From Porphyromonas crevioricanis (GTDB taxonomy: Bacteria; Bacteroidota; Bacteroidia; Bacteroidales; Porphyromonadaceae), in the NCBI RefSeq assembly GCF_900167225.1, contig NZ_FUXH01000008.1, positions 1-64,000 on the forward strand: 64,000 bases of DNA. The letters run 5' to 3'. The notes under the pieces are model-generated. The model did no database searches. It was not told the origin of the DNA and saw only the letters and a program-made list of their open reading frames with translations. Made by a program: the position numbers and the translations under genes. Positions within the stretch are counted from its first letter, which is position 1. Every line of letters begins with the position of its first letter. Shown piece after piece: positions 16,299-53,385 of this stretch.

Positions 16299-16331
16299 GA
16301 TAAGACCAATCGAATAAACCCATTGTTAGAT

Positions 16332-16365
16332 AGGTCGGAGCAATGATTGCTCCGACCTGTTCTTG
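16332..16365 (+). terminator. Strong hairpin terminator of the TonB-receptor operon
   Basis: A perfect 12-bp stem (AGGTCGGAGCAA / TTGCTCCGACCT) with a 3-nt loop begins 34 nt after the stop codon of the last lipoprotein. It is followed by GTTCTTGCTT, a weak T-tract. Confidence 0.7.
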
Positions 16366-16643: not shown

Positions 16644-17510
16644 CTACTTGGAGAGAATTTTATACACCAATCCGGATTCCTTGATTTTCTCGTAATACGC
16701 AGGAAACAGTGTTTCGATTTTCCTAAGAAGGGCCAAACAAAGGAGCTCATTCTGGCTTGCGTGTGCGCGTGCTACGTCTTTTCCTCCCCAAATATGAGTA
16801 AATGTCGTATTCTCTCGTTGATAAGGATCATCCAAAAAATGATGAATTGAGAACATTTTCTTCTTGGCACACATTACCAACATACGCTGCTCGGCAAAGA
16901 CCATCTGCGAAACCATTTCTTTGGGAAGTTCACAATTTTCCGTCATGAAATCTATCGCACAATTTGTGTAGTAATCCTTGAAAGACTGGTCTGCAAGGAA
17001 AACACAGGCTGTGTTGCAAGCAGGCTCTCCCCAATCCCATTCTGGATCAAATCGATAACCTTTCCGCACCTTGAGATATTCCTGAGGGAGGTATGTACCG
17101 GGATACAAAGGTTCGCGATGAAGAACGGAAATCGGCACCCTCTCAAGCACATCGGTAATCGGCTTCCATACAATTAGATCGGTGTCGATCATGGCTATAG
17201 GGGCCGGCTCATTTCTCAATGCAAGCAACTTTCCAGCTGCCCAAAAGATATTCTGGTCAATGTATTCAACAGTATTCTCCAAAGTTTCCGTATCAATCCC
17301 TCCATTCCACAAATCCAAAATTCCAAGGGAATCATAGTATTCCAAAGCCATCGAGTCCGTATAGAGCTTAATATTTCCATTGTCTCTTCGCCAAGTGAGA
17401 GCAGAAAGAATGGTCGTAAGAATCTCGAATTTGTCTATCCTATATTTTCTTCCCTTCTGTCTAATCTGGAATGGGAGAGTACAGTTTACATGCAAGGCGG
17501 TTATCATCAT
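16644..17510 (-). CDS. Glycosyltransferase-like protein (DUF6734-like), last gene of giant-gene operon
   Basis: The 288-residue protein resembles GT-A-fold hypothetical transferases of the DUF6734 kind. The signs are an early YRIDKFE/LTTILSALTWRR region, KLYTDSMALEYYDSLG, FWAAGKLLAL, and a DxD-type motif in MIDTDLIVWKP (about residues 106-116) that in glycosyltransferases binds the metal and sugar nucleotide. There is no membrane segment or signal. Its ATG overlaps the stop of the preceding gene by 4 nt (ATGA), so translation is probably coupled. The context suggests that it modifies, or acts on the same target as, the giant proteins upstream. Family placement is from motif recognition and is moderate; activity is not proven by the DxD alone. 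Confidence 0.6.
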   Translation of the reverse strand: MMITALHVNCTLPFQIRQKGRKYRIDKFEILTTILSALTWRRDNGNIKLYTDSMALEYYDSLGILDLWNGGIDTETLENTVEYIDQNIFWAAGKLLALRNEPAPIAMIDTDLIVWKPITDVLERVPISVLHREPLYPGTYLPQEYLKVRKGYRFDPEWDWGEPACNTACVFLADQSFKDYYTNCAIDFMTENCELPKEMVSQMVFAEQRMLVMCAKKKMFSIHHFLDDPYQRENTTFTHIWGGKDVARAHASQNELLCLALLRKIETLFPAYYEKIKESGLVYKILSK

Positions 17511-19402
17511 TTCATTTCTTTAAACTGGATGGCTTTATCATCCTCTCGTCGAACTAATTCATCAAACATCAATCCACTATTTGCCTGATAGTTGCTAATT
17601 TTTCTGGAGATTCCAGTCCATAAAAAGCTATCACCAAAGAACCAGCGTGCTCGCTGCGTTTTCAGAGATAAGGTCGTCCCATAGCCAAGAATTTCTTCCT
17701 CATTGATAACAAAGGGAATAATCTTTCTGGACTGCGAACCATCAGCGTTCTTTGAATATCTACAAGCAAGTAATTCTGTCGATGGCCGAACCGGCTGATA
17801 TTTCCCATTGAAGAATATGGGCATCTTCGATCTCCTCAACTGAATGTCTCGCAACTCACCTTGTATCTTCATGGGTAAGAAAGGGATCCAATTGATAGGA
17901 ACTCTATTTTGAAGTAAATAGTAGTACTCAGCATCTTGCTCTTCTCCAACATCGATATCAGGATCTTTTCTGGCATCAATGACAGACAATACAGTATCCG
18001 ATAAGCCTCCTCCATCCATCGTTCCACCGCATCCATCATTTATCTTCGTCTCAACACCCCAAACCATGTTAGCCATCTCATCTCGCAAGAACTCTATCTC
18101 TTCCAGTGGGTCACTCATATCGCTACGCAAAATAGTGGGAGGAAAGAGCAGACCTTTGCAAGAAGAAAAGTCGTTGGTATCATATGCATGTAATTTTGTG
18201 GTGCGGAATAGCCCCCACCTATCGGAAAACTCCACTTCCGGAGCATGATTATCAGATTCTTCTGGTGTAGTATTGATGAAAATCCTATCACCAAATGTAT
18301 CCGTCACTATTATTCCTTTTACATCAAGGATTGTCCCTGTCTCAGATTCAAGCGGAGTAAGCAACCAATCATTGCTATACATGGAAGTGTACTGCATGAT
18401 CACTGAGTTTGCCAACATAGAATAGTCTTTACCGGTGTTCTCTCCGAATCTGACTTTCCCGTATTCAAATTCCCAGAGCCGTCTTTTAGGAGCACCGGGT
18501 ATGTCTGCAGGCGTAGGCAAATAAGACAGCATCTTTTCTATCCCCACACCATCACTCTCTCTTTTCTCCTCTCCGTCGAACGAGTACCAAGACAAGGTGT
18601 CTGAGTCATAGCTTTCTGCTTTGTAATCAGTCCCATTCCCCTTCACTTCGACATCATAGCCCAGTGTTCTTTCATTCCAACAAGATGTCTCTAGATCATT
18701 CGGAAGGTACATTTTCCGGAACCAAGTGGAATATTTTTTCAGCAGTGTCTCCAGCTCCGGATGCTGCTCGTAAAATAAATTTGCATCTCTATAAAGGGTA
18801 TAACCATCGAAGATCCGCTTCTCGAAGCAGGCACTGAATTTTACCAGTGTCTTATTCGCTTCTCGTTTTAAAGTCTCGATATCTCTATCTGCATCCTTAA
18901 CAGGAGGAATAAATGTTGCAAGAGGATAATTGGAAAGAAGCTCTCCCAAATAAAAATCGATTTTTGATTGATCTGCTCCAAAATGATTCTCAAGCATTTT
19001 CTTAAAATGAGTAGCAGACGACACTCGGATGTATGGGGTGATCCTTCGATCCAACTTTTCAACTTCATACTCCAAAGGGGTATCCGTAGAATATGGAAAA
19101 ACCTCACCTCCTCTAACAATATTGGAAAGAGGAGTTCTTACAGTTGAAATTTTGGTCGTGACTATTGACCCACTGTCATTGGCTTTGAACCTGCCAAACT
19201 GCCACTGACGAGTCAATGTCCACAGTGGGTCGAAAACTTCAAATGAAAGCGCATCGGCAAAATCTTCCTTGCGAGTTCGAGGCTCGATTCTGGAAGAGAC
19301 TACAGCATTCCTCGGGAGGGCTTTATTCACTTCGTCCAAATACCCGGATAAGCCGAATTTTCTGACCAACCAGCTGCTTTCATTGTTTCTGCTTGAAGGC
19401 AT
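17507..19402 (-). CDS. Conserved large hypothetical protein with LTRQWQFG motif (operon gene 4)
   Basis: This is a 631-residue soluble protein of unknown function. Near its N terminus (about residues 36-72) lies a signature I recall from hypothetical proteins of other phyla: RIEPRTR..DF..AL..EV.DPLW.LTRQWQFG.F..NDSGS. The rest is mixed alpha/beta with no recognised domain, signal peptide or membrane helix. The start is set at the ATG at 19402 (MPSSRNNES) and not at 19558, because the longer frame would overlap the upstream gene by 131 nt and its extra 52 residues are only a shadow of that gene. This start leaves a 25-nt gap after the preceding stop. The downstream transferase overlaps by 4 nt. 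A structural or assembly role is a guess. Confidence 0.72.
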   Translation of the reverse strand: MPSSRNNESSWLVRKFGLSGYLDEVNKALPRNAVVSSRIEPRTRKEDFADALSFEVFDPLWTLTRQWQFGRFKANDSGSIVTTKISTVRTPLSNIVRGGEVFPYSTDTPLEYEVEKLDRRITPYIRVSSATHFKKMLENHFGADQSKIDFYLGELLSNYPLATFIPPVKDADRDIETLKREANKTLVKFSACFEKRIFDGYTLYRDANLFYEQHPELETLLKKYSTWFRKMYLPNDLETSCWNERTLGYDVEVKGNGTDYKAESYDSDTLSWYSFDGEEKRESDGVGIEKMLSYLPTPADIPGAPKRRLWEFEYGKVRFGENTGKDYSMLANSVIMQYTSMYSNDWLLTPLESETGTILDVKGIIVTDTFGDRIFINTTPEESDNHAPEVEFSDRWGLFRTTKLHAYDTNDFSSCKGLLFPPTILRSDMSDPLEEIEFLRDEMANMVWGVETKINDGCGGTMDGGGLSDTVLSVIDARKDPDIDVGEEQDAEYYYLLQNRVPINWIPFLPMKIQGELRDIQLRRSKMPIFFNGKYQPVRPSTELLACRYSKNADGSQSRKIIPFVINEEEILGYGTTLSLKTQRARWFFGDSFLWTGISRKISNYQANSGLMFDELVRREDDKAIQFKEMK

Positions 19403-19427
19403 ATTTAGTTCAATTTTAAATTCAACA

Positions 19428-22400
19428 TTAGTTTCTGAGAAGGTATCCACCAGGGATACAGTCAAAAATATCGACGCTCTTCCCTCCAATGAAAGACTTT
19501 CGTGGTCTGAAAGCACAACTCGAGAAGAAGGAGTGGCCGGGTAAATTTTGCAGCTCAAAATTACTCAAGAGAGGTAGGAATCGAGATAGGTAGGGATCCG
19601 AATAAATCATATCTGGATCTACAGCCCTATTCATGAGCATAAAGCGAGTCGTATCAAGCAGTCCGAGCACATCTTCCAGTCTCCAAGTGGCATCAGTTCC
19701 GATTTTGCTGAATTCTGGATGAATAGCCAACAATAAAGTCTGTGGTGCCTCATTATCCGGTTGATCACAATGGAAAGTCAAACCGGCTGTCTGCTTCTTG
19801 TAGGGGATGTATTCAATCCAAGAATCAATGATGAACCCTGCATTATAATGCCGCTCTCCTGTCCTGGTATACAGTTTGGCTGCAGAGTCAGCCCCATACA
19901 ACACGATAGAATCGACATTCTGGAGATCTCCCTCATCTTCAACTCCACAACCGAGCCATTTATCTCCGGCAATCTCTCTGCCATCCTTGACCTGTAGAAT
20001 CGAAGTATTCGGAGATCTCATCCCAAAAGCCGATCGAATCATATCCACATCATGCCAAAGCTTCATTCCGCCATATACTTCTGAGACTTCCATCTGCCAA
20101 TCTTCAAATGAATCGAAGTCCAGATTGGAATATTGGCCAATCCCGTTTCGGAGAAGAGTATCGCAAGCGATCCGATCTTTGACATCGGGGAGCATAACAT
20201 CCATTGTAAACCCGGGGAAAATTTTGAAAGAGTCCAATGTCAAAACTCTCAACGCCTTGATGTATTCAGCTGAAGAATAAATTTCTTGTACATCGGTTTT
20301 GATAATCTTTTCGGCTTTTTGGATGCGTTTTTCTACAGTGTCAGCAGCGATAGCAAAAGTCGATAGAAAATCCAACTGCTTCTGTCTCACTTTATCAAAT
20401 TCGATCCGCTGTAATACCGGATCGACTCTAAAAATTGGCTCTCCCTCAGCCTCACTGACCAAAAAGAGTTCTGGATCATAATTAGGCAGACTGTTTACAA
20501 GCCCATAGCTGACACATTTCGCCAAAAAATCCCACATTTTGGCAAGCTCCATATCCGGTATGTAGCGAGCGGACTTTAGGTTCAAGATTTGGAGAGACAT
20601 ACTCAGATGCAAGGATTTGTGGAGATCCAGAACATACTTGTAGCGAAACTTCAAGTCTTCCACATCAAGAGATTGTTCGTCATCCGGACCTGTCTCAATC
20701 ACAGTTTTTGCAGTGCTATCATCAGGAGGCATTGGAATCCAATCTTTTGCTTTCATAGCACTGCTGCGAAGTAGCAAACTTCTCAACTTCCTGATCAGGA
20801 ATTCAGCTTCAGCCAAGCTGATACCAGGTCTCTCCGTAATTGCCTCCGAGAAGTCCCAAAAGATCTTAACCTTGTCCTTCAGACAGTGATTTTTCAATCT
20901 CCATGCAGTCTCGACGAGACGGATGAAAGTGGTTTCGTATTCCGATAGATAGAGATATTCGATTGGATGCATACCAATCTCATTGAGACTACATACATGC
21001 CAAGACGGCACTCCATCCGAATGAAATCGCTGTACACAAAAAAAGATTCCGGACAGAGAGCCTATCATTTCCTCAATCCACCCATCTACGGAAGGCTCTG
21101 CAGCACAGAAAGCCGTACCAATGACATCTTTAGGATATTGCATCAAAACACCTACCCTGTGGGACACAACCACATGCTCCATTGGGGTATCAAGAATTGA
21201 TGCAGGAGGGAGATTGCCATTACCATCTACCATAAATTTTGTAATCGCAGAGAACGAATCCATATCCCCTTGAATCAGACGGTGCACACCTTCGGAAAGT
21301 AGCAAGTCATTCAAAGCATCATAAGAATCGACAAGTCGTTCGATACCCTTGAAAAGACTCATGCGATGGGAGTGTATGGCATCTATTCCTGTTTCCTCAT
21401 GCAAGACCGTGTACCAATCCAGGGTGCTGCGGTTTTTCTCCAGCCAGGAACTGACTGATTCTTGATAAGCCCATTTATCCAGAATAGAGGAGATAATAGC
21501 TTCTCCACTGATCACCTGCATGTTATAGTTGTCTGCCCGCTGATCTTGTGCTTCGATCTCTACTTTCAGAGGGAAAAGTTTCCGAAGAGGGTGGATGTAT
21601 CGATCCATTTCAGTCTCCATATACCTGCCTTCTCGGTATGCTTCGTGAAGATAACGCTCCAAATCAGCTCCCAGAATGGCAGAAGACGAAATGCCGGAAC
21701 GTACTCCTTGCAGAATCCGAAGAGCCTGCCGTGCTCGCATAGATGAGAGATTCACGCACATATGCGAATCCAGAGCACTATTCTTTGTTCGGAGATAAGC
21801 ACTCCGTAGGGCAGATGCAGAAAGGGCGTGTTGGATAGAAGGAGCAACAACGAATTCCCCTTTGTCCTTTCCGGACATCTGATAAATATTCTTGGATCCA
21901 CTGTTGTCTTCGGCTGCTATCCTCATCTTGGATATTATTTCTGAGCTGTTGTCCAGAACAGTTCGTTTATTCTCCTCTAGATTGAAAACCCAGCCGAAAG
22001 CTCCAATTTTGGGAACACGATTTCCTCTTTGGCGAAATTGTTCATTTAGGATATAGTCAAGCTCACCAGAAAACCAAGCATCAAGCCTGTATGTGAAAAG
22101 ATCCAGAAACTCTCTTGCCAACAATTCTGCATCCTCATCTGAAATTTTATCAAGGACATTCTTGACTACCGCCACAGGTTCGGCCAGATCCTCCTTTTCT
22201 GTCAGGTCGGAAATACCCCAAGGATAGAAATGACCAACTTCCTCAAGACGACTCAGATAGGAAGGTACCTTTTGATCTCCTTTGGGGAGCAAAGGGGAAT
22301 CAATCACGGTACGTCTCAGGTGAGAAATAGAATGTGGAGCTTGCCCTGCCATTTCAAGATATTTTCTGTCGGCATCAATTCCCTTGAGATCTTCCGAACT

Positions 22401-24194
22401 GATAACGCTCTCTTTGCGTAGCCTTTTCCATTCATCTGCCATGGCAACGAGAAAACCGTTCAACTCTTTGAGTAGAGGATCGGCATTACGCAAATCGTCG
22501 TCAAGTTTTAGGAAGTCTGTCACCGGGAGTATCCCATAGGGCAAGTCGTCAATTCGGAACGAAGGGATGTTACCTCTGGCACGGACATGGTTCACCACAA
22601 AATCTCCGATGACATCCAAAAGTCGGTCGAGCTGGCTGTCTTTGACTTTAACCTTATCCCGATAATGATCCCACAAAGCTCTGTAAGCCATCCTCGCCAT
22701 CTCATTCTCAGAACGTTCTGCATTCAAGACTCGCCCCCAAGTCTTCCGGTAATCATTCTCTGAAAATCCGAGTATAGAAGCAACCTTTTTGGAGTCAGAA
22801 AGGTCATAAGCAGGAATTAGATAACGGTCTTCTACTTCCGCAGCATAGCGTTGCTGCATTTCGTCTTCATGCTCCACTGGTGCATACGTTCTCCCATGCT
22901 CAACATGGTTGGTAGGAGTACCAGCCTTAAGCATTTCAATTCGGGAATAGGCATAATTATGACTATTAAAGAGGCTCTTCAGATGCTCTAAATCACCGAA
23001 TCCCGTCTGTTTGAACCCGAGTATGTAGATGTAATTAAATCGCTGAACATCACTGTCTATAGGGACAGTAATTGCCATTCCTACTCGCTCGGCCTCGTCA
23101 TAGTCAACCATCCATTTGCATTTCCCATTGACTATCAGATTCCCATTTTCGTCAATCTTGTAAGGAAGTTCAACTGTCTCATCCGTTGGATTGAAACCTA
23201 TTTCTAAATTCGAAGGGATCTGATTCCCATACCAAGTGATTACTCTCTTGGATTCAGCTTCCTCCCCAATCATCATAAACCTATTTGGTAAGATATGCGA
23301 GACCGGCATATCAGGAGCCTCCGTTTCTTTTATCCTGACTTTCGGAAAAATATCGTGCTTCGGATCACGAAGGTACATCCAGATCATCTCATTCAATGGA
23401 ATCCGGCCTTTATTCATGCGACTGATGAAATCATCCACTTCAGCACTAAAGGATCTGATCATTGTATAATCCACATCCCACAACTCCATCTGGCGTGCAT
23501 TGTCAGCGTAGTAGGGATATTTCTCATAAAAGGAAAGGAAGCCATCCAATCGCTCTCGCAAATACGCAACAGTTCCTTGGACACTGTCGTAGAGATAGTC
23601 GACAATATACTTGCACGTCAGCAATTCTCGTTCGATCAGGGAGAGTTGATTCTTGATGTCATTGATATTTTTCCGCACCTGTTTCTCAAAAATATACTCT
23701 CCCGTGTCGGGATCAATCCGATGTCTTTCATCAATATGGATAAAAGACAAATGTCTCTTGATCGACAAACACGCATTATCAATGCCTTCCAAGTTCTGAT
23801 AAGGGCGCCGATAATAAAGTTTTCCTCCTGCACGAAACAGACCTATTGTCTCCGGTCTCATTGTTCGGCAAATCCATGCTGCCCTATACAAGGGATATTT
23901 CCCGCACAGCACTTGCCATGCTTCATACTCTCGCCTGGGACTTCCACTGGCAATGAACCATTGCAACCAAAAAAACTTTCCGTCTTCGATCTCTTGCCTT
24001 GTCAATGAATCAGTCAGATAATCCAGAAAGATCTCATTCGGGAAGATTCTGACACACAATTCCTTTTGAACTTTTCTGCTGCGGAAGTGTGTTTCTATCC
24101 TAACTGGGAAAAGGAGCAACGGGGTATGGGTTGGGACGTCACTCAAAACTTTCACAAAAGCGTTTTGCTTTTCGTATTGTGTGATAGGAGCCAT
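19428..24194 (-). CDS. Giant conserved hypothetical protein, 1588 aa (operon gene 3)
   Basis: The protein opens with LLLFPVRIETHF (about 25-37) and CVRIFPNEIFLDY (about 46-58), followed by a WFIASGSPRREYEAW segment. It closes with WIEYIPYKKQTAGLTF (about 1450-1466), APQTLLLAIHPEF (about 1481-1494) and DTTRFMLMNRAVDPD (about 1510-1525). I recognise this start-and-end pattern from very large uncharacterised proteins in other bacteria. The middle is largely helical, with many Trp and aromatic residues. No signal peptide, membrane helix, catalytic motif or repeat is evident. It starts 13 nt after the preceding gene. The long open frames on the opposite strand here are shadows. Function unknown; size and operon position suggest a scaffold or part of a large complex. 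Confidence 0.75.
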   Translation of the reverse strand: MAPITQYEKQNAFVKVLSDVPTHTPLLLFPVRIETHFRSRKVQKELCVRIFPNEIFLDYLTDSLTRQEIEDGKFFWLQWFIASGSPRREYEAWQVLCGKYPLYRAAWICRTMRPETIGLFRAGGKLYYRRPYQNLEGIDNACLSIKRHLSFIHIDERHRIDPDTGEYIFEKQVRKNINDIKNQLSLIERELLTCKYIVDYLYDSVQGTVAYLRERLDGFLSFYEKYPYYADNARQMELWDVDYTMIRSFSAEVDDFISRMNKGRIPLNEMIWMYLRDPKHDIFPKVRIKETEAPDMPVSHILPNRFMMIGEEAESKRVITWYGNQIPSNLEIGFNPTDETVELPYKIDENGNLIVNGKCKWMVDYDEAERVGMAITVPIDSDVQRFNYIYILGFKQTGFGDLEHLKSLFNSHNYAYSRIEMLKAGTPTNHVEHGRTYAPVEHEDEMQQRYAAEVEDRYLIPAYDLSDSKKVASILGFSENDYRKTWGRVLNAERSENEMARMAYRALWDHYRDKVKVKDSQLDRLLDVIGDFVVNHVRARGNIPSFRIDDLPYGILPVTDFLKLDDDLRNADPLLKELNGFLVAMADEWKRLRKESVISSEDLKGIDADRKYLEMAGQAPHSISHLRRTVIDSPLLPKGDQKVPSYLSRLEEVGHFYPWGISDLTEKEDLAEPVAVVKNVLDKISDEDAELLAREFLDLFTYRLDAWFSGELDYILNEQFRQRGNRVPKIGAFGWVFNLEENKRTVLDNSSEIISKMRIAAEDNSGSKNIYQMSGKDKGEFVVAPSIQHALSASALRSAYLRTKNSALDSHMCVNLSSMRARQALRILQGVRSGISSSAILGADLERYLHEAYREGRYMETEMDRYIHPLRKLFPLKVEIEAQDQRADNYNMQVISGEAIISSILDKWAYQESVSSWLEKNRSTLDWYTVLHEETGIDAIHSHRMSLFKGIERLVDSYDALNDLLLSEGVHRLIQGDMDSFSAITKFMVDGNGNLPPASILDTPMEHVVVSHRVGVLMQYPKDVIGTAFCAAEPSVDGWIEEMIGSLSGIFFCVQRFHSDGVPSWHVCSLNEIGMHPIEYLYLSEYETTFIRLVETAWRLKNHCLKDKVKIFWDFSEAITERPGISLAEAEFLIRKLRSLLLRSSAMKAKDWIPMPPDDSTAKTVIETGPDDEQSLDVEDLKFRYKYVLDLHKSLHLSMSLQILNLKSARYIPDMELAKMWDFLAKCVSYGLVNSLPNYDPELFLVSEAEGEPIFRVDPVLQRIEFDKVRQKQLDFLSTFAIAADTVEKRIQKAEKIIKTDVQEIYSSAEYIKALRVLTLDSFKIFPGFTMDVMLPDVKDRIACDTLLRNGIGQYSNLDFDSFEDWQMEVSEVYGGMKLWHDVDMIRSAFGMRSPNTSILQVKDGREIAGDKWLGCGVEDEGDLQNVDSIVLYGADSAAKLYTRTGERHYNAGFIIDSWIEYIPYKKQTAGLTFHCDQPDNEAPQTLLLAIHPEFSKIGTDATWRLEDVLGLLDTTRFMLMNRAVDPDMIYSDPYLSRFLPLLSNFELQNLPGHSFFSSCAFRPRKSFIGGKSVDIFDCIPGGYLLRN

Positions 24195-24207
24195 GACTTT
24201 TTCTTAT

Positions 24208-27200
24208 TCAAGATGGATTGGGAATAAACAGAGATAGGTGCTTGCCGTACAGTGTCGCATCATTTTTGAGGATCATACCTGCAATGGCAGCATCCTTTGC
24301 CCGAATAAACTGTTCGGAATCAGTAGGATTTTTCTCAAAACTCAAATCCTGCACATCCTCTTCAAAGGTGAGCAAATAGCCATAATCACCTTTTGCAGGA
24401 TTACCAAGTAGTTGATCGAAATTTGCCTTGAATCCCACCACATAAATATCATCTCGCAGGAATGCTTCAGAAACCGGCCGGATAATACTTCGATCGGCCT
24501 CATCGGCGGATTCCGCAAAAGTAATAACCCCTGGCTTGAACTTATCAGCAGAGGCCTTGTGCAGATATACTTTCGTCATTGGATATTGCTTCATCAACCT
24601 GCCCTTGACAACGAAAAGTAACAGACCTGCCTTGGTAGAGGCATGATTCTCGCCAATCTTCCCAGTCCAGGTATGAAGAGGTCTAACATCGAAAAAGTTG
24701 TCATTTCGGATGTCTTCTCTACTGGTCTCCGAATCCCAGAATTTTCTAAAATACGAACCTCTCTGGTCAGTAGGATACTCCCTCCACAGCAATTCTTTCC
24801 CCATTTCAGTATTCATACCACACAGAAAGGCTTCCACAAAAGATTCGTTCGTCCGCATCAATACAACCGAATTATCCGGGAGGGCGTCTACACAAGGGAG
24901 AATAAACTTATCCGACAAAAGCCGCAGGTAGTGATAGGTCGGCTCCGGAAAAATTGGATACGCCATAACCGGGAATTTGGACCGGAGCAGTTCATTGACA
25001 TAGCTCTCACGAAGTTTCCTTCCGGAAAGAGTCTCGGCAAAAAATTCCGACATATATTCCGAAACAATTTCACGAACACGTTCCAGAATAAGATTGTCTT
25101 TGAACCCATTGTAGTTCGATTGCATCTGTCTTGTCTGTTCCTTCTTCAGTCTCTCTGCATTTTTCCGCTCCTTGATCTCGGCAGCATTTAAAGCATCTTT
25201 TCGAATCTCAATAACCTTGACACACTCGTCTAACTGTTTCCAAGCTCGCAGATAGTCGTTTGTTCCATTGTCATTGCAGTCTCGGAGAAAAACAATGTAA
25301 TCTTGGATAGAGTCAAAGCACTGCATATCCTTTTTATCATATTTGTCCAAATGCAGTGTGAACCCAATTGGAGTATTCTTGAAGTAGTCGTAGATACGCT
25401 CTCGTAAAATGTCGTACCCTTGAGAAAGACTATTGGAATTGGGGCCAAAACCCAAAAAATTCTTCCATTTCTCCATCATTTGCTTCCATTGACCCGTAAG
25501 GTTAAACCTATAATTTTCACCAGAGGCTGAACCAGACCTGGTAACAATTCCATCAATTTCTCTTTTTAATCTTCCAATCAATTCACCAGGTGTGAGTGCA
25601 ACCTCTTTAAGAGGATCTCTGAAGAACGAAGTAGCATGTTCTCGATACTGTACCTCAATCGCTTGACCGTTTTTCAACAACCTGCGAGAAAGAAAATACC
25701 AACCATCTTCGCCTCCTATTCGAGTCAGACCTTTCTCCGAACCAAAAGCTTCAGCATACAACTGATCATCAACAGCAACAATATTGGACAGAACAGTTCC
25801 ATGAAAAGGATTAGATCCTACAGAATACTTGTTCTTATAAGCTCTCGTGACTCCAAGAATTCCATGACGAGAAAACTCACCATCCAAGAATTTCCGAATA
25901 ATCTCCATGCAGAGATCTTGCTTTTCTCCACAATGCGTTCGTGTGGCCTCATAATTGAGATAGTGCCACAGATATTCTTGATTGTCTTTCGGGACAGTCG
26001 CAATTCGCAGACCGTTCTCAAAGTCCTGATCATTCCGAACCGGGTTGGTTCTCGTTTCAGCTGGGATGGTTGATTGGAAATGCCACTCGTCAATTTTCAA
26101 CCTTTGGTAATCAAAATACCCAGTGAGATACTGATCAAAAATTTCTTTGGAAAGAATAGCGAAAATGCTATTGGTATGACTGCGGAACTGATGGACACTT
26201 GGCAATTCGGGGATTTTGTAGTCCGCAAGTCTGAATATCTGTGCTTCAGCGATATTTTGCATGATGGATTTCGGATCCACAGAAGACTGGATCCTGGCCA
26301 AAGCTTCTGTCATAGACTGAAAAGAGGCTCTTGCATAAGCACGCGGAATATTCCTGTCTCGGAGAATTTCTTGAGTCTGAGGCATTCCTCGAAAATACTG
26401 CAGCATAGTACTCATATAGTCCGGATGCTTTTCTCCATTCTCCATGACAACCGAGACTTTGTTCTGAAGAGAGGTAGTCACATTAGCACTTGCCAAACGA
26501 CGGTACAGTTCGACATTCAATGCCTGAATATCTTCAACCTGTTTCCAAGCTCTATCGACAAACTCTTCCTGGAATTTTCGGACGATTTTTTTGCCAAGGC
26601 CGGCAACTGCTCGATAATGAATATCTAGATTGAGTTGAGAAAACCAGGAGGTTCCACTCTTCTGATTGTCACGCTCATCTACGGAGGTAGCAAAAATATG
26701 CTTGGCTCCATACAAGGGAGGGACGACCCAAGGATCATCATCAACACCACCAATTTCTTCCCTTTCGTTCTCCCCTGAAAGAATGTCCTTATTCTCTATG
26801 AGAACCGGGCTACCGGAAAGAAGATTTTTCAACCTGCGATAAACAGTACCTTCACGAAACGTCCCATCCGGAGCTGGGAAACACTGTTCGTCTTTTCTAT
26901 TCAAGGAGCTTACCGCAGCAGGCATCTGGATAGAACGACGTTCCGGTCGTTCATCTTCACCTAAGGTATCAAAGCTCACACCTTCACCCATCTTGGTGAT
27001 ATCAACGTCGATAAAGGTTTTGGCTTCCGTCCAAACCCTCAAATCCTCCGCCATCTTATCGAAACTATCTTGCCCAGTCACGAAAGACCACGAATGGTAC
27101 ACAGGAAAGTCGAAAGGACGAGGGTGCATGGTCTTTTGTTCTTCAAAACTCGACTCCCATGCATGCGCTTGGGCTGTGGTATCTTTCACTTTCTCCGTAT

Positions 27201-27894
27201 CAAACCCCAATCCGGCAAGCCTTCCCGTCTCAAAAGCAGGCACCAAAAAGACGACATACTCCGTGAATGGTTTCAGATCTCCTCCGGCACGTAACGCCAG
27301 CAATCGTGAGAAGACCGGAGTCTCTTTTGAAAATCCTTGAGCGTGCGCAGTCTTCCAAGAATCTTCTTGAGAAGGGAAAATGCTCTTGTATACCTCTTCT
27401 CCGGAAATACTGAATGAAACGTAGTTCAAATCCCCGGATTTTTTCTCAGCACAAAGATTTTTCTCACATACAAGCAATGCCAACCACGGTCGGATCCGAT
27501 TATCAGCATTAGGCTTAACAGGAGAAAAACGCCAAGGGAAATCCGGCTCCCAGAACTCGATATAGGGCAAATACTGGGGAGGCATTGATGTACTCAGAGG
27601 CTTAGGAGTCACCTTGGAAATAGCCTGATCTAATACCTGTGTAATGTCGCTTGGGCCAACAAACTGAATTTCCTTGGTCTTAATGATTGTAGATTTTTCT
27701 TCATCTCCGTCCTGCGAAGCAGTGTCTGTATTCAAGAAGTGAGCTTCGAGAAACAGTGCGGCCCGATGCTTTGTCAACCAAAGATCCTTCTGAATCTCAG
27801 ATGTTGTGAGCTTATCCTCCTCGGCAATCCTATTTCCCAATCCTTTCTTAACCCAAGGGAAATAGTATGTGGTTGCGTATTTTTCCATCTTCAT
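24208..27894 (-). CDS. Giant conserved hypothetical protein, 1228 aa, with RPWLALLV and GRLAGLG motifs (operon gene 2)
   Basis: The N-terminal 300 residues hold signatures I recall from uncharacterised proteins of many phyla: LPYIEFWEPDFPWRFSP (about 107-123), RPWLALLVCE (about 133-142), YVVFLVPAFETGRLAGLG (about 213-230) and AHAWESS. The remainder is mostly helical, with a charged coiled-coil-like stretch at about 905-935 (ERKNAERLKKEQTRQ). The last ~150 residues look beta-rich. There is no signal peptide or membrane segment. Translation starts at an ATG 14 nt after the DUF6603 gene; a second ATG two codons later is equally possible. Next to the 1588-residue gene, which starts 13 nt downstream, it belongs to one translational unit. 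No function can be assigned. Confidence 0.75.
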   Translation of the reverse strand: MKMEKYATTYYFPWVKKGLGNRIAEEDKLTTSEIQKDLWLTKHRAALFLEAHFLNTDTASQDGDEEKSTIIKTKEIQFVGPSDITQVLDQAISKVTPKPLSTSMPPQYLPYIEFWEPDFPWRFSPVKPNADNRIRPWLALLVCEKNLCAEKKSGDLNYVSFSISGEEVYKSIFPSQEDSWKTAHAQGFSKETPVFSRLLALRAGGDLKPFTEYVVFLVPAFETGRLAGLGFDTEKVKDTTAQAHAWESSFEEQKTMHPRPFDFPVYHSWSFVTGQDSFDKMAEDLRVWTEAKTFIDVDITKMGEGVSFDTLGEDERPERRSIQMPAAVSSLNRKDEQCFPAPDGTFREGTVYRRLKNLLSGSPVLIENKDILSGENEREEIGGVDDDPWVVPPLYGAKHIFATSVDERDNQKSGTSWFSQLNLDIHYRAVAGLGKKIVRKFQEEFVDRAWKQVEDIQALNVELYRRLASANVTTSLQNKVSVVMENGEKHPDYMSTMLQYFRGMPQTQEILRDRNIPRAYARASFQSMTEALARIQSSVDPKSIMQNIAEAQIFRLADYKIPELPSVHQFRSHTNSIFAILSKEIFDQYLTGYFDYQRLKIDEWHFQSTIPAETRTNPVRNDQDFENGLRIATVPKDNQEYLWHYLNYEATRTHCGEKQDLCMEIIRKFLDGEFSRHGILGVTRAYKNKYSVGSNPFHGTVLSNIVAVDDQLYAEAFGSEKGLTRIGGEDGWYFLSRRLLKNGQAIEVQYREHATSFFRDPLKEVALTPGELIGRLKREIDGIVTRSGSASGENYRFNLTGQWKQMMEKWKNFLGFGPNSNSLSQGYDILRERIYDYFKNTPIGFTLHLDKYDKKDMQCFDSIQDYIVFLRDCNDNGTNDYLRAWKQLDECVKVIEIRKDALNAAEIKERKNAERLKKEQTRQMQSNYNGFKDNLILERVREIVSEYMSEFFAETLSGRKLRESYVNELLRSKFPVMAYPIFPEPTYHYLRLLSDKFILPCVDALPDNSVVLMRTNESFVEAFLCGMNTEMGKELLWREYPTDQRGSYFRKFWDSETSREDIRNDNFFDVRPLHTWTGKIGENHASTKAGLLLFVVKGRLMKQYPMTKVYLHKASADKFKPGVITFAESADEADRSIIRPVSEAFLRDDIYVVGFKANFDQLLGNPAKGDYGYLLTFEEDVQDLSFEKNPTDSEQFIRAKDAAIAGMILKNDATLYGKHLSLFIPNPS

Positions 27895-27908
27895 GCAAGG
27901 ATTGTGCT

Positions 27909-30900
27909 TTATACGTTTTCGAGTTGGTCAATGAAAGTACGAGCCTTTCGCTTTAATGTGCAATCTGATTGCAGTATATATCGGCGAATGCCTTCTGCAT
28001 TCCTCCTTTGGGAAGAAGAATGTTTTCTGTTCATTATTTCTTTAGAAAATTTACGTGTTAGAGGATCAGAAGGACCGTTTACATTCCTCAAAGCAGATAT
28101 CCCCATCTTACGAGTGGATAATGCTTCCCGAGTACTCCATTCGGTTTGGGATGTCTCCACAGAATATCTCTGCCACTTAGTCCATACATCATCGTCCAAG
28201 AACTGGCAAACACGCTCTTGAGCTGGTTTGACTTCCACTCCCTCCCCTTTCTCTTCCTGCAATCCATGGGTCAGAATAAAACCAGACTTCATCTTCTGGT
28301 AAGAAGGGGCTGCCAATTTTTCCTCATCGGTCAGATCTTTGATTAGTGCGGGGGCGAAGGAAGTGGACAGGAACTCATAGTCGTCCTCCTTTGTAAGCTC
28401 TATTCCGGAAATGCAGAGCTTTTCCATCTCGATCTGACAAACATCACCGGGTTCAGCCTCACCATACTTCTCCATTCGTTCTCCGAGTGGCACACCACTT
28501 TGGCTGAAAGCGATTGTATCAGACGGCTTCGCGACCAGTCCTTCAGATTCGATTTCGGAGAAGGAAACCAGTCTATCGACCACATCGTTTGAGAAAACTT
28601 GCCAGTTGGTGTTGTCAGTAAAGCCGGCTTCAAAGATGGGGAATATAGAGATGTACTTTTTTTCGCTGCCTTCCAGAGCTCTACCCCAAGTCTTACTAAA
28701 ATGTGCACGTTTTTTGACGAATAGGATCCGGAAAGTAGCTTCTCCAGAGGCATGCCATCTTGCAGGTCCACTCAATTCCAGAGCAATACCTACTGCGAGC
28801 AATGTGATTCCACAACATTTTACCTTCACTCCCGCAGATCCTTCGACCATAAATAGGAAGGGGTTGAACTGGAACAACGCATTAAACTCAAAGAAGCCTG
28901 AGATAGAACAGATGTATAGGTTGATGTCCATTTCCATCCTTGCTCCAAACTGGACGGTATTGGACGTGACCGCAAAGTAAGTATCGAGGGAGAATTTGAG
29001 CACGGAATAATTCAACTTCATTCCGATTCTCCGCATATCACGGACATTAAAACCAGCTTCCGGCTTGTACTTAGGATGGAATCCTCCCGCCGAGAAAAGG
29101 AAGCCCTTGGTATCACCGGCCCAGTACATCCGGAAGGCCACATCGCCATAAAGGTCAATGCCTACGATGTGAGAATCAACTAGCGAAGCATCGAAGGAGA
29201 GGCCCTTGCTAAAATCAATCATCCCGAAGAAGTAGACATTGAGCGACAGAAGCCAATCCAAAGACTTCGAAAGGCCGATATGCATTCCTCCGGCGATAAT
29301 TATCACGACTGGATCAGGGGCCTGAATGAAAAGCCCTGCATCTATCTCCATAACATCTGAGAAGGTGATTCGGGTCATGAAACCGAAAAAGACTTGTTCT
29401 TCTTGAGTCGGGAAATAAGTCGTGATATTACCCAGTATCGTATCCAAATGTTGGGCAATGTCGTCTATGAAGAGTACGGCACCCAAAGTTCCATCTCGAG
29501 TAGCACTGATGAGTCTATCTTGGTCAATCCGTCTATTGATACCCAGAGATCCACCGATCTTGGTCAACTGAAAGCCCATTCCAAGTTGGATTCCCGGTTT
29601 GAAAGTCGTGCTCAGTGCAGCCATAAAAGAGAACCCCTTGCTACCATCAGGCATACGCATGCGGAAAAGAAGGAGTGCATCCACGCTACAGAGATTCAAG
29701 ACTCCGATACTAATTGCTCCCAGAAACTCCTCTTTCTCCTTACTCCATTTGATGATTCCGGCACCGGTTACAGCCTTGGTATCAATAGAAATCCCTATTC
29801 CATCGGGGAAACTGAAATGCGGTCTAATGTCGAAGTCTCCAAATCCACCTTTGTCATTAAAGACATTGACATCTATTCCAAATCCAAGATCTGCGAACGA
29901 AATGGCTATTCCATGAAAATCAGCGGTAAAAGAGGAATTGAAATCCGCAAGCAGATTGTTGCTGGGACCTCCTCCCAATTCTATCATCAAATTGTTGAAT
30001 TTCACGAAATTCAGGTCCACATTCTTGTCCAAAGGAATCTGGACAAGGTAATCACCATTGATCCGAAATCCGTCTTTAACACTATACCCGATATCCAATG
30101 ACTCCAAGCCAACTTTGATAGGCTTCTTGAATATCTTGGCAAAGAAGTCATTCATACTGGCCAAAAACAAATTCAGCTCCAAGTCGCGTAGACTTCCGAG
30201 GTACCCCGCATCAAACCCTTCGTTGTATCCAACGTAAATCTTCTGAGGGTAGTCCATGATGGAGAGTGAAGCAATGCTATCGTCTTCATCAGAAATCTTG
30301 TCAGGGTCGGGTCCAAAGATCATCAACTTGTTGTTCTCTGTCCGGGAAAACAGCAACTCGAGATAAGCCTTGAGCGAACCAGAGACTTCGTCCAGAGGGA
30401 TGATAGAAGGTAACCGGTCTCCGGGCTTTGTTGTAAGGAATACTCCCAACTTCTGCGAATCCTGAAGTTTTTTCTTGGCATCCTCATCAACGCGCTCAAA
30501 ATCGAAGTCTCCGTTCATGCTTTCGGAAGCACCAAGTTTTAGCTTATGATTGGCTCCGAGATTGATTTCTACTCCAAAATCACCGGAAATCATAGGTAGG
30601 AGATACAATCCAGCCTTATCGCTTTCTCCAATCTTCCGAGATCCTACGAATGCAATAATCTTAATGGACACATTGCCTGATATGGATGAAGAAGAGGGTT
30701 TCTGTGAAGAGGCATACTCATAAAGAGTTACACAGAGGAACTTATTTTTGACATCTAACGAATATGGAGGAAGTTTGACTGCTCCAAAATCGAAATCTGG
30801 CAAATCGACCAGCTCCCTGAAATACTTCTTCACGCTTGTGGGTACAGCCTTATAGAACTTGATCGCAAATCGGAGACCATCTTGCCAAGAATCAATCTCC

Positions 30901-33467
30901 GCAGCTTCCTGAGGAATAGCAATCAACTGTTCGGCAAACTTGAGATTTTCGGGATTGAACAACTTCTCGTACTCTCTCAAGTCCGGAATATTGGGTAGAT
31001 TCCTCCTGATACTGGCAACAGCCTTGGGCAACAACTCTTCTCTAAGCCAAGTCTTCACCGCCTTCTCAATGGCATTCTTGTACGGTTTGAGGATATTGTT
31101 GTAGAGAGATGTGAGGAGATGATCAAGATAAGCTCTGAACACATCTACAGAAAAAGATTTGAGCTTATCCGGATAGTCATCGACTGTATTGCTGACAGAC
31201 CTCAATGTACCCCTTATCTGAGAAGACTCAGTCAAGGATGTCACAGTTGATTCAACAGCTGTCAAGAACTTGTCATAATAAAGAGGTCCAAAGTCCGGCA
31301 AAATTTCTTCTATTGCGTCCCTGAAGATCTCGAAGTATCTGTAGATATTGAACCCCGAGAAGGGATTGTTCGGCAAACCTCCTTTGAGCAATTTTTCGAT
31401 TACATCTCTCCCATATTTCTCGACATCTTTGACAGAAGAGGGAATATTCTCCGTCTGCTTTTCGAATTCCTCTCCAAGATCATCAATCACACCTTTGAGT
31501 CTATTCCTCCAGACTTCCTCTTCGAAAAGTGCCCTTGCCATTTTATCCATGGATTGGAGCAATGGTCGGAAGTTATTAAGAAGAACATTGGCATCCTTTG
31601 CTCCCGAAACAACAATGGCTTTTCCCCAAGCATCAGGATCAACATTTTTAAACAACTCGTGCTCCGCTGCCTTCTCCTTTAGTATACGAATGAAAGGATC
31701 TACAAAAGCGCGCTCGAAAAATTCATTATTGATATCTAATTTCGAATCGAACAGAAGTCTTTCAATGTCAGAGCTGCCCTCTGTAATGAGGAGATCAATT
31801 TCTTTCCTGACGCCACTGGACAGAGAGTCGAACACAGATTTGGCCTCGTTCTTTGCATTCTTGTAGGCTTCTGTCAATTCCTGCCTGACAGCAGTCCCAA
31901 ACTCAGAAATGACCTTTAAGACATCAAAAATGAAATCTCGGAATTTCTCCAGATTCTTAACAGCCTCAGTATTGGATATTTGAGCTCCAAAATCTTTGAT
32001 CTTTTCGCTGATACGGATCAGGAGTTCATGCAAAAACTGTTGGATGTCCTCAATATTCGGAACCTGCGGATTGAAGGCTCGCATCACCTTCAAAACTTTT
32101 TCCATCAAATTGATGGCATCATCATAGCTTTCAATAGGGTAAATCTCCCTCAGATAATCAATAGGATCAGTGAACAAGCGTTTTAAGCGTGACCACCTAA
32201 TCACTTGGATCTCGACAGTCGGTGCGGTTGCCTTCATTTTCGCAACTGCATCAGAAAGAAGATCATTTACCTCCCTGACAGATTTCTTTGCATCAGACAA
32301 AATTGCCTGAAAGTCCTGCGAAACAAGATCTATATCTGCCCGAATGCACGAATAGGGAAGTTCGATAGAATTAGGAATGTATTTGGCAACCTTGATAGTC
32401 TCTTTATCAAAGACCTTAAGGAAATCCAACACAACATAGATCTTGTTCAGAATATTAGCGAATTGGTTGTAGTCATCAAACAATTCGTTGCCCAATTCCT
32501 CCAACCTAGCCTTGGCGGTCTTGAGTCTTGCTGTCAAATCAGAACTTACTTCCCTAACCGCTTGCAGGCCTTTTTCTTTAGCTGCTTTCGCAAGTTCTTC
32601 CGCCCTGTCACATAACTGACTTTCAAGCTCTGCTATTTCCTTTTCGAGGGCTTTGATCTCATCGACAACTTCGCTAACAGGGCGAGTTAAATGCTCCTCA
32701 ATACCTTCTCTGATATATTTAGAAATGTCTGAAGCTCCGTCGACAAGAGCACAGATATCGTCTGAGAATACGTCCTTGGCATTGCTCAGGATAGTTATGA
32801 GGATATGATCCAGAATTCGATCTGCAAATTCCTTATTGAAAAAGTTGTCATCAAGGAAATCCAGAAAACCCTCATATTCAGAAACCAGCTTCTCCCCCTC
32901 TATATCTTTGAATTTACGGACTATGTCAAAAAGATCTACAATTAGCTCCAGAAGACTGTAAATATTGCCAAGAAGCCCTTCATCTGTTGGTACTTCAGAG
33001 TCTCCCAATCCTCCCTGGTCATACAGTTTTTTGGCAGCCGTCAGAAAAGACGCTGCTTTCGATCCGGCAGAAGATGGATTGGTCAGAACCAAATCAATCT
33101 CACTCTTCCAGTCGACTGTTGTAGAGAGACTTTGCACCACATTCCCAAGTTTGACCAAAACAGCCATGCAAGATTTGACCAAATCGAACAATTCTCTATT
33201 CTTCTCAAACTGTGAGAGATCGTAACCAAGTCTATGGAAAAGGCCGTTGACATAGTCCTCAAATTTGAATTTTCCGGATTCTACTTCGGACAGGAAATCT
33301 TTGGGAGAATAATCCTCCAACTCAGATTTGTCCGGCATATATTCAGAGATATTCTGAAGCAGATCCTTCAAAAGAGCTTCTTTGCTCTTAGATAGCACAA
33401 GTCCAATTTTTGAGAGTATTCTCTCAGCTCCTTGCAGGGAGGTGGGATGAGTAGGGAGGGCACTCAT
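27909..33467 (-). CDS. DUF6603-type giant protein, 1852 aa (operon gene 1)
   Basis: This is the first and largest gene of the operon. The N-terminal half (about 1-900) is rich in charged helices, with a clear coiled-coil at about 265-325 (LEKEIAELESQL, LTARLKTAKARLEEL). From about 900 the composition turns to beta-strand with many Gly, Asp and aromatic residues. Motifs of DUF6603 appear in order: MGFQLTKIGGSLGINRR (about 1295-1311), FFGFMTRITFSD (about 1350), PDPVVIIIAGGMHIGL (about 1372-1387) and FSAGGFHPKY (about 1455-1465). The C-terminal ~200 residues are polar and may be a linker or attachment arm. There is no signal peptide, so it is probably cytosolic unless carried by an unknown route. 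DUF6603 has no established function that I know of. Confidence 0.8.
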   Translation of the reverse strand: MSALPTHPTSLQGAERILSKIGLVLSKSKEALLKDLLQNISEYMPDKSELEDYSPKDFLSEVESGKFKFEDYVNGLFHRLGYDLSQFEKNRELFDLVKSCMAVLVKLGNVVQSLSTTVDWKSEIDLVLTNPSSAGSKAASFLTAAKKLYDQGGLGDSEVPTDEGLLGNIYSLLELIVDLFDIVRKFKDIEGEKLVSEYEGFLDFLDDNFFNKEFADRILDHILITILSNAKDVFSDDICALVDGASDISKYIREGIEEHLTRPVSEVVDEIKALEKEIAELESQLCDRAEELAKAAKEKGLQAVREVSSDLTARLKTAKARLEELGNELFDDYNQFANILNKIYVVLDFLKVFDKETIKVAKYIPNSIELPYSCIRADIDLVSQDFQAILSDAKKSVREVNDLLSDAVAKMKATAPTVEIQVIRWSRLKRLFTDPIDYLREIYPIESYDDAINLMEKVLKVMRAFNPQVPNIEDIQQFLHELLIRISEKIKDFGAQISNTEAVKNLEKFRDFIFDVLKVISEFGTAVRQELTEAYKNAKNEAKSVFDSLSSGVRKEIDLLITEGSSDIERLLFDSKLDINNEFFERAFVDPFIRILKEKAAEHELFKNVDPDAWGKAIVVSGAKDANVLLNNFRPLLQSMDKMARALFEEEVWRNRLKGVIDDLGEEFEKQTENIPSSVKDVEKYGRDVIEKLLKGGLPNNPFSGFNIYRYFEIFRDAIEEILPDFGPLYYDKFLTAVESTVTSLTESSQIRGTLRSVSNTVDDYPDKLKSFSVDVFRAYLDHLLTSLYNNILKPYKNAIEKAVKTWLREELLPKAVASIRRNLPNIPDLREYEKLFNPENLKFAEQLIAIPQEAAEIDSWQDGLRFAIKFYKAVPTSVKKYFRELVDLPDFDFGAVKLPPYSLDVKNKFLCVTLYEYASSQKPSSSSISGNVSIKIIAFVGSRKIGESDKAGLYLLPMISGDFGVEINLGANHKLKLGASESMNGDFDFERVDEDAKKKLQDSQKLGVFLTTKPGDRLPSIIPLDEVSGSLKAYLELLFSRTENNKLMIFGPDPDKISDEDDSIASLSIMDYPQKIYVGYNEGFDAGYLGSLRDLELNLFLASMNDFFAKIFKKPIKVGLESLDIGYSVKDGFRINGDYLVQIPLDKNVDLNFVKFNNLMIELGGGPSNNLLADFNSSFTADFHGIAISFADLGFGIDVNVFNDKGGFGDFDIRPHFSFPDGIGISIDTKAVTGAGIIKWSKEKEEFLGAISIGVLNLCSVDALLLFRMRMPDGSKGFSFMAALSTTFKPGIQLGMGFQLTKIGGSLGINRRIDQDRLISATRDGTLGAVLFIDDIAQHLDTILGNITTYFPTQEEQVFFGFMTRITFSDVMEIDAGLFIQAPDPVVIIIAGGMHIGLSKSLDWLLSLNVYFFGMIDFSKGLSFDASLVDSHIVGIDLYGDVAFRMYWAGDTKGFLFSAGGFHPKYKPEAGFNVRDMRRIGMKLNYSVLKFSLDTYFAVTSNTVQFGARMEMDINLYICSISGFFEFNALFQFNPFLFMVEGSAGVKVKCCGITLLAVGIALELSGPARWHASGEATFRILFVKKRAHFSKTWGRALEGSEKKYISIFPIFEAGFTDNTNWQVFSNDVVDRLVSFSEIESEGLVAKPSDTIAFSQSGVPLGERMEKYGEAEPGDVCQIEMEKLCISGIELTKEDDYEFLSTSFAPALIKDLTDEEKLAAPSYQKMKSGFILTHGLQEEKGEGVEVKPAQERVCQFLDDDVWTKWQRYSVETSQTEWSTREALSTRKMGISALRNVNGPSDPLTRKFSKEIMNRKHSSSQRRNAEGIRRYILQSDCTLKRKARTFIDQLENV

Positions 33468-34065
33468 AGTTCTATAGATTTTGTCAATATCATCATCTAT
33501 TCAGGGAACACACTTTCGACACAAAACAAAACGAACAACTATCCCTTTGAATAGTAACAAAGCCTCAGTACAACAAGAAGAATCAACCTGACTCAGACAT
33601 CTGCAACTACTGCGAACTAACAACTAAAATCTCTCGTTCCCAAGAAGGAAGTCTCTCGTTAAATCCGCCAGCAGAGCCTATTTATCATTTTATGAAAAGG
33701 GAAAACTCCCTTCTCTCCTCTTCCAAGCTAAACTTAATGAAGTATCTCAAGACTCCAAATAAATCGCGAGGCTTAGGCTGGCTGGAAAGTCCCATTAAGG
33801 TATTCCTCTGTGTAGGCATAGCCATATCGTGTTATCTGCACGGTGTCACAAAGATATATTTTTTAATCCTACAAATCAAATATTGCAAAAACTGTCATCC
33901 AAAAGCAAGATTTGGCATCCAAGCTTCCACAAAAGAACTATTCGAGGTCAAATTATATATAGAAATCTTTGAAAAATAAGGAGATGTAGGAAAGAGGTAT
34001 TCTTCGGATAAAAGGAGGGAAGAATTTGGGGGGAAGCAAGGGACAAGGAATAAAATGGCTTGTAA
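33468..34065. other. Intergenic stretch upstream of the giant-gene operon
   Basis: About 600 nt separate the first operon gene from the hairpin next to the transposase remnant. The part nearest the gene (33468-33848) would be a leader of about 375 nt transcribed from the promoter at 33849-33880. I see no riboswitch or strong stem in it. A 95-codon frame on the plus strand (33692-33979) lacks a promoter, has no family resemblance and is not called. Confidence 0.5.
33849..33880 (-). promoter_or_regulatory. Promoter of the giant-gene operon
   Basis: On the minus strand TTTG (33880-33877), a 20-nt A/T-rich spacer and TATCTTTG (33856-33849) match the Bacteroidetes -33/-7 consensus exactly. Predicted transcription start is near 33842. 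It is the best promoter match in the island. Confidence 0.65.
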
Positions 34066-53244: not shown

Positions 53245-53385
53245 AACTAAAACTTTATGTTTTCTACACCTAAAAAAACTTACATCTTTAGTCCTCCCTA
53301 TATATGAGCAAGAATATTTCACAAAAGGACCCCGAAAGCGCGAGGTAAATGTAGAAAAAAAATCCGTCTTTCATCTCTATCCTTC

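Follow-up and report, generated by a model that had tools for sequence, protein, structure and literature searches.

Tc (ABC) toxin complexes, which resemble the locus described here by analogy, combine several giant proteins with an enzyme, and ApoB100 and other large lipid-binding beta-sheet proteins form a long amphipathic antiparallel sheet. Extracellular contractile injection systems (eCISs; AFP, PVC, MACs, and AlgoCIS) are large multiprotein loci that spread horizontally and carry varied cargo, as passages of PMC8213781 and PMC8894135 describe them. According to part of PMC11062931, the umbrella toxins of Streptomyces are large particles with an interchangeable toxic part, in which UmbA has a trypsin-like domain, UmbA to UmbC bear Sec/Tat signals, and UmbC contains ALF repeats. 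The MoxR-vWA, GTPase, and peptidase conflict systems join variable effectors to a conserved core (sections of PMC7159879). Here, we compare with these systems a five-gene operon (P1 to P5) of Porphyromonas crevioricanis, located on the minus strand of the first 64,000 nucleotides (nt) of contig NZ_FUXH01000008.1 (the window). Its first four genes are, with near certainty, a real and co-inherited module and probably serve as a chassis for interchangeable enzymes.

P1, which carries DUF6603 and anchors the module, has 1852 amino acids (aa; positions 27909..33467) and is followed by three core proteins of no named family, P2 (1228 aa; 24208..27894), P3 (1588 aa; 19428..24194), and P4 (631 aa from ATG, the longest open reading frame [ORF] being 683 aa from a TTG start; 17507..19402), and by P5 (288 aa; 16644..17510). 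The intergenic gaps from P1 to P5 are 14, 13, 25, and -4 nt. A first-pass annotation of the window had reported five minus-strand genes of these lengths and spacings, and ORFs are found at those positions; a chance origin is ruled out because of their length and conservation. Unlike the Tc complexes, P1 to P5 have no Tc or RHS family match in Pfam or NCBIfam, a comparison at the sequence level only; unlike eCISs, they have no DUF4157 match; unlike the umbrella toxins, they have no Pfam match of the kind that marks UmbA to UmbC; and unlike the conflict systems, they have no MoxR/vWA, GTPase, or STAND match in Pfam. For anti-phage defense, the five proteins gave 0 matches at an E value of ≤0.1 in PADLOC (PADLOC-DB of 2023). 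In the libraries searched (Pfam, NCBIfam, PADLOC, and PHROGs), no component of the chassis could be assigned to a described system.

How constant is this block? A scan for P4 in one genome per species (84,980 species) returned 137 relatives, of which 80 were kept and 57 were not; locus counts given here exclude the window's own locus (L001). P3 accompanies P4 in 76 of the 80 loci; P2 does so in 66 and P1 in 46, always on the strand of P4. P1 often lies beyond the 10-kb flank, and DUF6603 occurs in all 41 P4 genomes searched whole (41 chosen of the 80 loci). Of the 14 loci without P2, 13 have their first module ORF starting at most 400 nt from a contig edge; the real exception is L057, where P4 has no upstream P3. 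The genome of L057 also holds an upstream gene (P0, described below), P1, P2, and P3 elsewhere (L128, where the stretch ends inside P3). Among 296 evenly drawn Bacteroidota genomes, one of which is the window's, P4 and P2 occur in the same 6, all of which have P3 as well; DUF6603 occurs in these six plus 6 others. The similarity matrices of P4/P3, P4/P2, and P3/P2 (72, 66, and 66 sequences) correlate at 0.92, 0.91, and 0.91, respectively, values that 0 of 500 permutations reached. Gene order is P1-P2-P3-P4 throughout, except for three permuted places (L029/L140, L061/L124, and L139) that read P2-P3-P4-P0-P1, so that P1 sits behind P4 in L029 and L061. The order has changed in three places, yet the parts adjoin, indicating that they stay together. 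Genes can be split: P2 and P3 are each divided in Rhizobium lusitanum, and P3 is divided in L046. The possibility that the genes are fragments of one larger known gene was rejected, since P1, P2, P3, and P4 are separate families, and the idea of a module stands.

The block is patchily distributed. P4 is found in 1 of 38 genomes of the window's family, and the block is spread over records labeled Bacteroidota, Cyanobacteriota, Actinomycetota, Chloroflexota, Myxococcota, Pseudomonadota, and haloarchaea. The P4 tree, for which 66 of 81 sequences were used, interleaves phyla, with 63 of the 66 sequences carrying ten different phylum labels. On starred branches of this tree, Kribbella pairs with Chelatococcus, and Nannocystis pairs with a Chitinophagaceae metagenome-assembled genome (MAG); phylum labels of MAGs can be wrong, and the Kribbella-Chelatococcus pair consists of named strains. 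The window belongs to a starred set of 8 that holds 4 Bacteroidota and MAGs labeled Myxococcota, Fibrobacterota, and Thermoproteota; these MAGs are among the window's nearest relatives, on branches with a support of 93 to 94 that are not starred. Relatives of P4 are also found on 13 bacterial and archaeal plasmid records, including those of the haloarchaea Salinigranum, Natrinema, Halalkalicoccus, and Halobellus, and the Salinigranum plasmid carries the entire block, namely, a PhoD-like P0, P1, P2, P3, and P4. Co-occurrence, near-constant order, patchiness, the interleaved tree, and plasmids together support the transfer of the P1-P4 block between phyla. This upholds in part the first-pass proposal of a five-gene conserved module moved between phyla: P2 and P3, and P1 with them, accompany P4 in other genomes, and the claim is not supported for P5, which is present in 7 of 80 loci. 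A phage origin was considered and rejected: among 50,697 phage records, P4 was found once, on an unverified fecal scaffold, viral contigs gave 1 short end-of-contig match, and the tape-measure matches fall in a coiled region. The unverified fecal "bacteriophage" scaffold (L155; MT835531.1) carries the end of P1, then P3 and P4, arranged as elsewhere; an unlabeled 622-aa ORF takes the place of P2, and the scaffold is probably bacterial DNA.

A variable gene, P0, which the first-pass annotation had not noticed and which is new here, often precedes this block. Among 52 P1 loci fetched, 51 were examined; P1 was below threshold in L105, whereas L111 and L142 are one place, and 40 of the 47 DUF6603 places in the 41 genomes searched whole were fetched. 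P0 was defined as a stop-to-stop ORF on the strand of P1 that has 250 aa or more and is separated from P1 by -320 to +150 nt; it lies directly upstream of P1 in 39 of the 51 loci, one of them (L148) being the front part of P1 itself, broken off by a stop. In the permuted loci L124, L139, and L140, a gene still stands directly before P1. Pfam matches were collected for 50 hand-picked upstream ORFs, second-upstream genes included; the 25 of 31 families listed comprise S8 subtilase (5), PhoD (4), NAL1_N (3, all in the trypsin-like P0 group), MBL (2), and SCO1 (2), with tyrosinase, PLD, M64, galactose-oxidase-like, and DUF4135 among the families from the P0 region that were seen once, and with no DUF4157, a further difference from eCISs. 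A class 3 lipase (lipase_3) is the P0 of L122, and the GH20 (L112) and DUF4954 (L133) genes in the set are probably unrelated. Directly or through blastp clusters, about 24 of the 39 P0s fall in a recognized enzyme family (S8, trypsin-like, PhoD, MBL, tyrosinase, PLD, M64, lipase_3, and DUF4135), and proteases are the most frequent types. In a crude look at hydropathy, without a set threshold, most P0s have no evident signal peptide; the GH20 gene of L112 reaches 2.29.

The trypsin-like and subtilase P0s have different catalytic domains and a common C-terminal domain of about 145 aa with the motif W-H-R-x-x-G-P. This adaptor is carried by 11 of the 12 trypsin-like P0s, 4 of the 5 S8 subtilases, and 2 stand-alone ORFs of the same operons. 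It appears helical from its sequence, a likeness to the small adaptors of the conflict systems. A search of 25 whole genomes, 12 of them known carriers beforehand, found 17 copies in 12 genomes, all beside P1 and none elsewhere. A second common piece, N-terminal and about 330 aa long, is part of a fusion in L108 and forms an ORF of its own in L115 and L123. The subtilase P0s keep the Asp and Ser motifs in 5 of 5 cases and the His motif in 4 of 5. Runs of 3 to 5 consecutive cysteines are present in 7 of the 12 trypsin-like P0s (L116, L127, L130, L134, and L138 among them) and perhaps bind metal. Tyrosinase, galactose-oxidase-like, and SCO1 genes of the P0 region (L117:4399-7762; L115:4025-5662; L123) encode what we take to be copper-type proteins, and copper is a possible theme among the genes of this region.

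P1 matches DUF6603 (PF20248) over aa 1152 to 1713 with an E value of 5e-92 and 309 bits against a curated Pfam cutoff of 27, which bears out the family given in the first-pass annotation. The surrounding region (aa 940 to 1775; 28143..30650, minus strand) is predicted to form ~31 long antiparallel, strongly amphipathic beta-strands in an AlphaFold2 (AF2) model with a predicted local distance difference test (pLDDT) score of 78 and a predicted template modeling (pTM) score of 0.54. The best structural match of the modeled region is the beta-belt of ApoB100, with porins almost as close; no sequence relation of P1 to ApoB100 was found, and the predicted global shape is uncertain. The N-terminal ~900 aa are helical or coiled and match phage tape-measure PHROGs (E value, 7e-9), probably because of a coiled coil; Pfam matches of this part to apolipoprotein A1/A4/E and similar families all lie below cutoff, are typical of coiled coils, and were set aside. 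No paper naming DUF6603 was found among open-license PMC papers.

P2, P3, and P4 have no match above cutoff in Pfam or NCBIfam, nothing in PADLOC, and PHROG matches only at an E value of 0.05 or worse. The signature motifs quoted in the first-pass annotation are present in the translations, and that of P4, DPLWTLTRQWQFG, falls on invariant columns, which include D58, W61, and Q66 in an alignment of 66 sequences. The AF2 model of P4 (pLDDT, 82.8; pTM, 0.78) has no PDB match at an E value of ≤0.001 in a structure search, and nothing convincing was found. By the same crude hydropathy look, P1 to P4 contain neither an obvious signal peptide nor an obvious transmembrane segment (best N-terminal 12-mer, 1.55); the first-pass annotation had taken the module as perhaps a large intracellular assembly. 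Some copies bear additions or annotations: the P4 of L056 (8747-10030) has an N-terminal helix-hairpin-helix extension (HHH_3, below cutoff), which the start of the P4 ORF of L025 resembles by eye, and the Salinigranum plasmid P4 (L153:15998-18712) bears the annotation lamin tail domain protein, which it shares with two further plasmid copies from haloarchaea. The annotation of P3 in one haloarchaeon includes a surface domain, and no signal peptide is seen by eye at the start of this P3.

The block can also adjoin an eCIS. The flank ORFs numbered 467, and 138 of them were used, namely, the first two of 120 to 900 aa behind P4; here, Pvc16_N is tied with PIG-L as the commonest family among the 25 of 159 listed, with 3 each. 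In L028, L034, L038, and L037, from three Chitinophaga genomes and one of the Flavobacteriaceae, P4 is followed at a distance of 0.5 to 2.3 kb by the start of an eCIS locus of the same strand. The terminator was called by Pfam, PDB sequences of Afp, Pvc, and related chains served to check the sheath in L037 and the tube and spike in L028, and the rest were called by family membership. By chance, 0.11 such cases are expected in the 50 genomes examined (50 of the 80 loci). Judging from the P4 tree, the four loci appear to represent two independent lineages, for which P is 0.005; counting all four as independent would overstate the case. P1 to P5 themselves gave no match to a sheath, tube, spike, or Pvc16 terminator, sheath and tube not having been searched genome-wide.

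What would such a block do? We propose that P1 to P4, whose genes are passed on and exchanged together, form the chassis of a single large complex and that, in many lineages, this chassis carries P0 as an interchangeable enzyme. P0 would dock on it through adaptors, probably on P1, the constant neighbor of P0. The amphipathic beta-sheet of P1 may engage a membrane or lipid. P0 would be loaded as cargo in the cytoplasm of the producer; its enzyme types are often secreted, yet mostly have no evident signal peptide, as expected for cargo loaded there. The P0 enzyme would be an effector aimed at another organism, and in two lineages a contractile injection system adjoins the block. To the whole statement, a chassis that carries interchangeable enzymes and delivers them to other cells, we assign a probability of about 0.4. 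A more specific form of it, tentative and rather unlikely, is an as yet undescribed type of cross-domain effector particle in which an ApoB-like soluble P1 sheet and P2 to P4 form a lipid- or membrane-engaging carrier, with enzymes docked by private adaptors, alone or together with contractile injection systems.

Several observations weigh against delivery of enzymes by a chassis. P0 is absent from 12 of the 51 P1 loci, and about 15 of the 39 P0s have no recognized enzyme family; a few P0s reach an N-terminal hydropathy of 1.9 to 2.0, so that signals are possible. Clustering of the flanks revealed no recurrent immunity- or release-type gene family, and the global shape of the P1 model is unsure because of its pTM. 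Pvc16 is present in 25 of the 50 P4 genomes and beside P4 in only 4 of 50, three of them Chitinophaga, a genus that, according to part of PMC8213781, nearly always has eCISs (89%); the other 46 of 50 genomes show no eCIS adjacency. An enrichment of eCISs in P4 genomes was rejected as well, with Pvc16 in 2 of 6 versus 62 of 290 genomes of the Bacteroidota sample. Neither the adaptor nor Pvc16 was found in the window's genome, so the copy in hand lacks the parts that suggest cargo.

Could the complex instead act within the producer? In an intracellular conflict or defense complex, P1 to P4 would detect an invader and in response set free or activate P0 (an effector protease, phospholipase, or other enzyme) inside the cell, like the NTP-dependent conflict systems. 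Swappable effectors with a common adaptor do resemble the effector-associated domains described in part of PMC7159879, the distribution is patchy and mobile, and the core proteins have no evident signal peptides. We nevertheless regard this explanation as rather unlikely: P1 to P4 have no NTPase, nuclease, or nucleotide-sensor domain above the Pfam cutoff and nothing in PADLOC, and tyrosinase, galactose-oxidase-like, and PhoD partners would be odd as intracellular suicide effectors. The trypsins bear on both explanations. According to the same part of PMC7159879, those in effector position are nearly all inactive, whereas here the Ser motif GDSG[SA] is kept in 12 of 12 trypsin-like P0s; their His pattern, seen in only 6 of 12, counts against active cargo in turn. 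Judged by these motifs, activity of the trypsin-like P0s is likely, though less sure for some of them.

The predicted structure of P1 allows another explanation, that of a lipid-carrying particle or lipid-transfer device, in which the P1 sheet wraps or conducts lipid like the ApoB100 beta-belt, P2 to P4 make up the rest of the shell, and P0 works on the lipid load or together with it. The ApoB100 match speaks for it, and with porins nearly as close and no sequence relation we find it distinctly doubtful. It is improbable that P0s are maturation proteases or chance neighbors and that P1 to P4 build a cargo-free structural or surface assembly. Proteases are indeed the most frequent P0s, P0 is missing from the 12 loci and from the window, and the P3 of one haloarchaeon has its annotated surface domain. 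Against such an assembly stand the P0s that are not proteases, the place before P1 that P0 keeps in permuted loci, the confinement of the adaptor to these operons in 25 genomes, and the start of that haloarchaeal P3, where no signal peptide is seen by eye.

A chassis with a variable enzyme is not the only context of DUF6603. The 6 other DUF6603 genomes of the Bacteroidota sample, which lack P4, carry a different operon (type II), at seven places, composed of a DUF6603 protein, Q1 (~630 to 960 aa, in two pieces in some), and Q3 (~1220 to 1420 aa, cut by the stretch end in two places). Profile comparison links P2 and Q1 as remote homologs (hhalign probability, 96; E value, 1e-9; 201 columns), which makes DUF6603 plus P2/Q1 the common core of two types; Q3 gave no match to P3 or P4 in the same kind of comparison. 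Upstream of one type II DUF6603 gene, two tandem 1060-aa paralogs are found (L105:487-6913), the first of which has no Pfam match; by eye, their C-terminal motif is presumably HNH-like.

The window's copy is a Bacteroidales variant with no P0, a long helical P1 N terminus, and P5 in the operon. P5 matches DUF6734 (PF20508; E value, 2.6e-12; 47.2 bits versus a cutoff of 27; profile 24 to 285 of 286), a family for which no paper naming it was found among open-license PMC papers. Its DTD motif, a conserved DxD metal motif of the GT-A type, is kept in the window and in 6 of 6 complete relatives, the seventh being cut at the motif, and a C-terminal H-x-W-G-x-K block is, in our assumption, reminiscent of GT8 enzymes. 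By these motifs, P5 is a candidate GT-A-like glycosyltransferase. P5 directly follows P4 in only 7 of the 80 P4 loci, all among the window's closer relatives; 5 of the 7 lie within the 8-row set of the tree that holds the window, and the other two, L010 and L015 (40 to 41% identity), lie outside the tree. P5 was therefore rejected as a core component and may modify the complex or be an effector of this clade.

The surroundings of the operon offer few landmarks. The one promoter and one terminator claimed in the first-pass annotation could not be confirmed: a candidate promoter (33849..33880, minus strand; TTTG-N20-TANNTTTG), matched to what we take to be the Bacteroidetes-type consensus, sits 382 nt upstream of P1 and is weak evidence, the window having 2 such matches versus 0.81 expected. 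The strongest hairpin near the operon end, a possible terminator of 15 bp (16329..16361) between the operon and its converging neighbor, is listed for the plus strand, whereas the operon is on the minus strand. The G+C content of the operon (0.438) versus that of the rest of the window (0.459) shows no strong anomaly; the genome has 2.05 Mb in 29 contigs. Directly upstream of P1 lies a front-truncated DDE transposase (34122-34589, minus strand; DDE_Tnp_1, profile 27 to 200 of 200), possibly a scar of the block's arrival. Farther away, the window encodes a 1162-aa Peptidase C25 protein (38286-41774, plus strand), which we take to be of the gingipain family, with a weak type IX secretion system (T9SS) tail below cutoff, and a leucine-rich repeat protein ending in a T9SS sorting tail (51580-53322, minus strand). 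Genes of this kind, a C25 peptidase and T9SS tails, would fit a member of the Bacteroidales of Porphyromonas type.

A coding block of ~16 kb that is kept together across phyla and archaea points to an undescribed molecular machine. The adaptor provides an experimental handle, since with it one can predict the enzymes of the system and their expected binding partners. If the P0 enzymes are effectors, the block would be a new delivery platform; if it handles lipid, it would be a prokaryotic counterpart of large lipoprotein coats.

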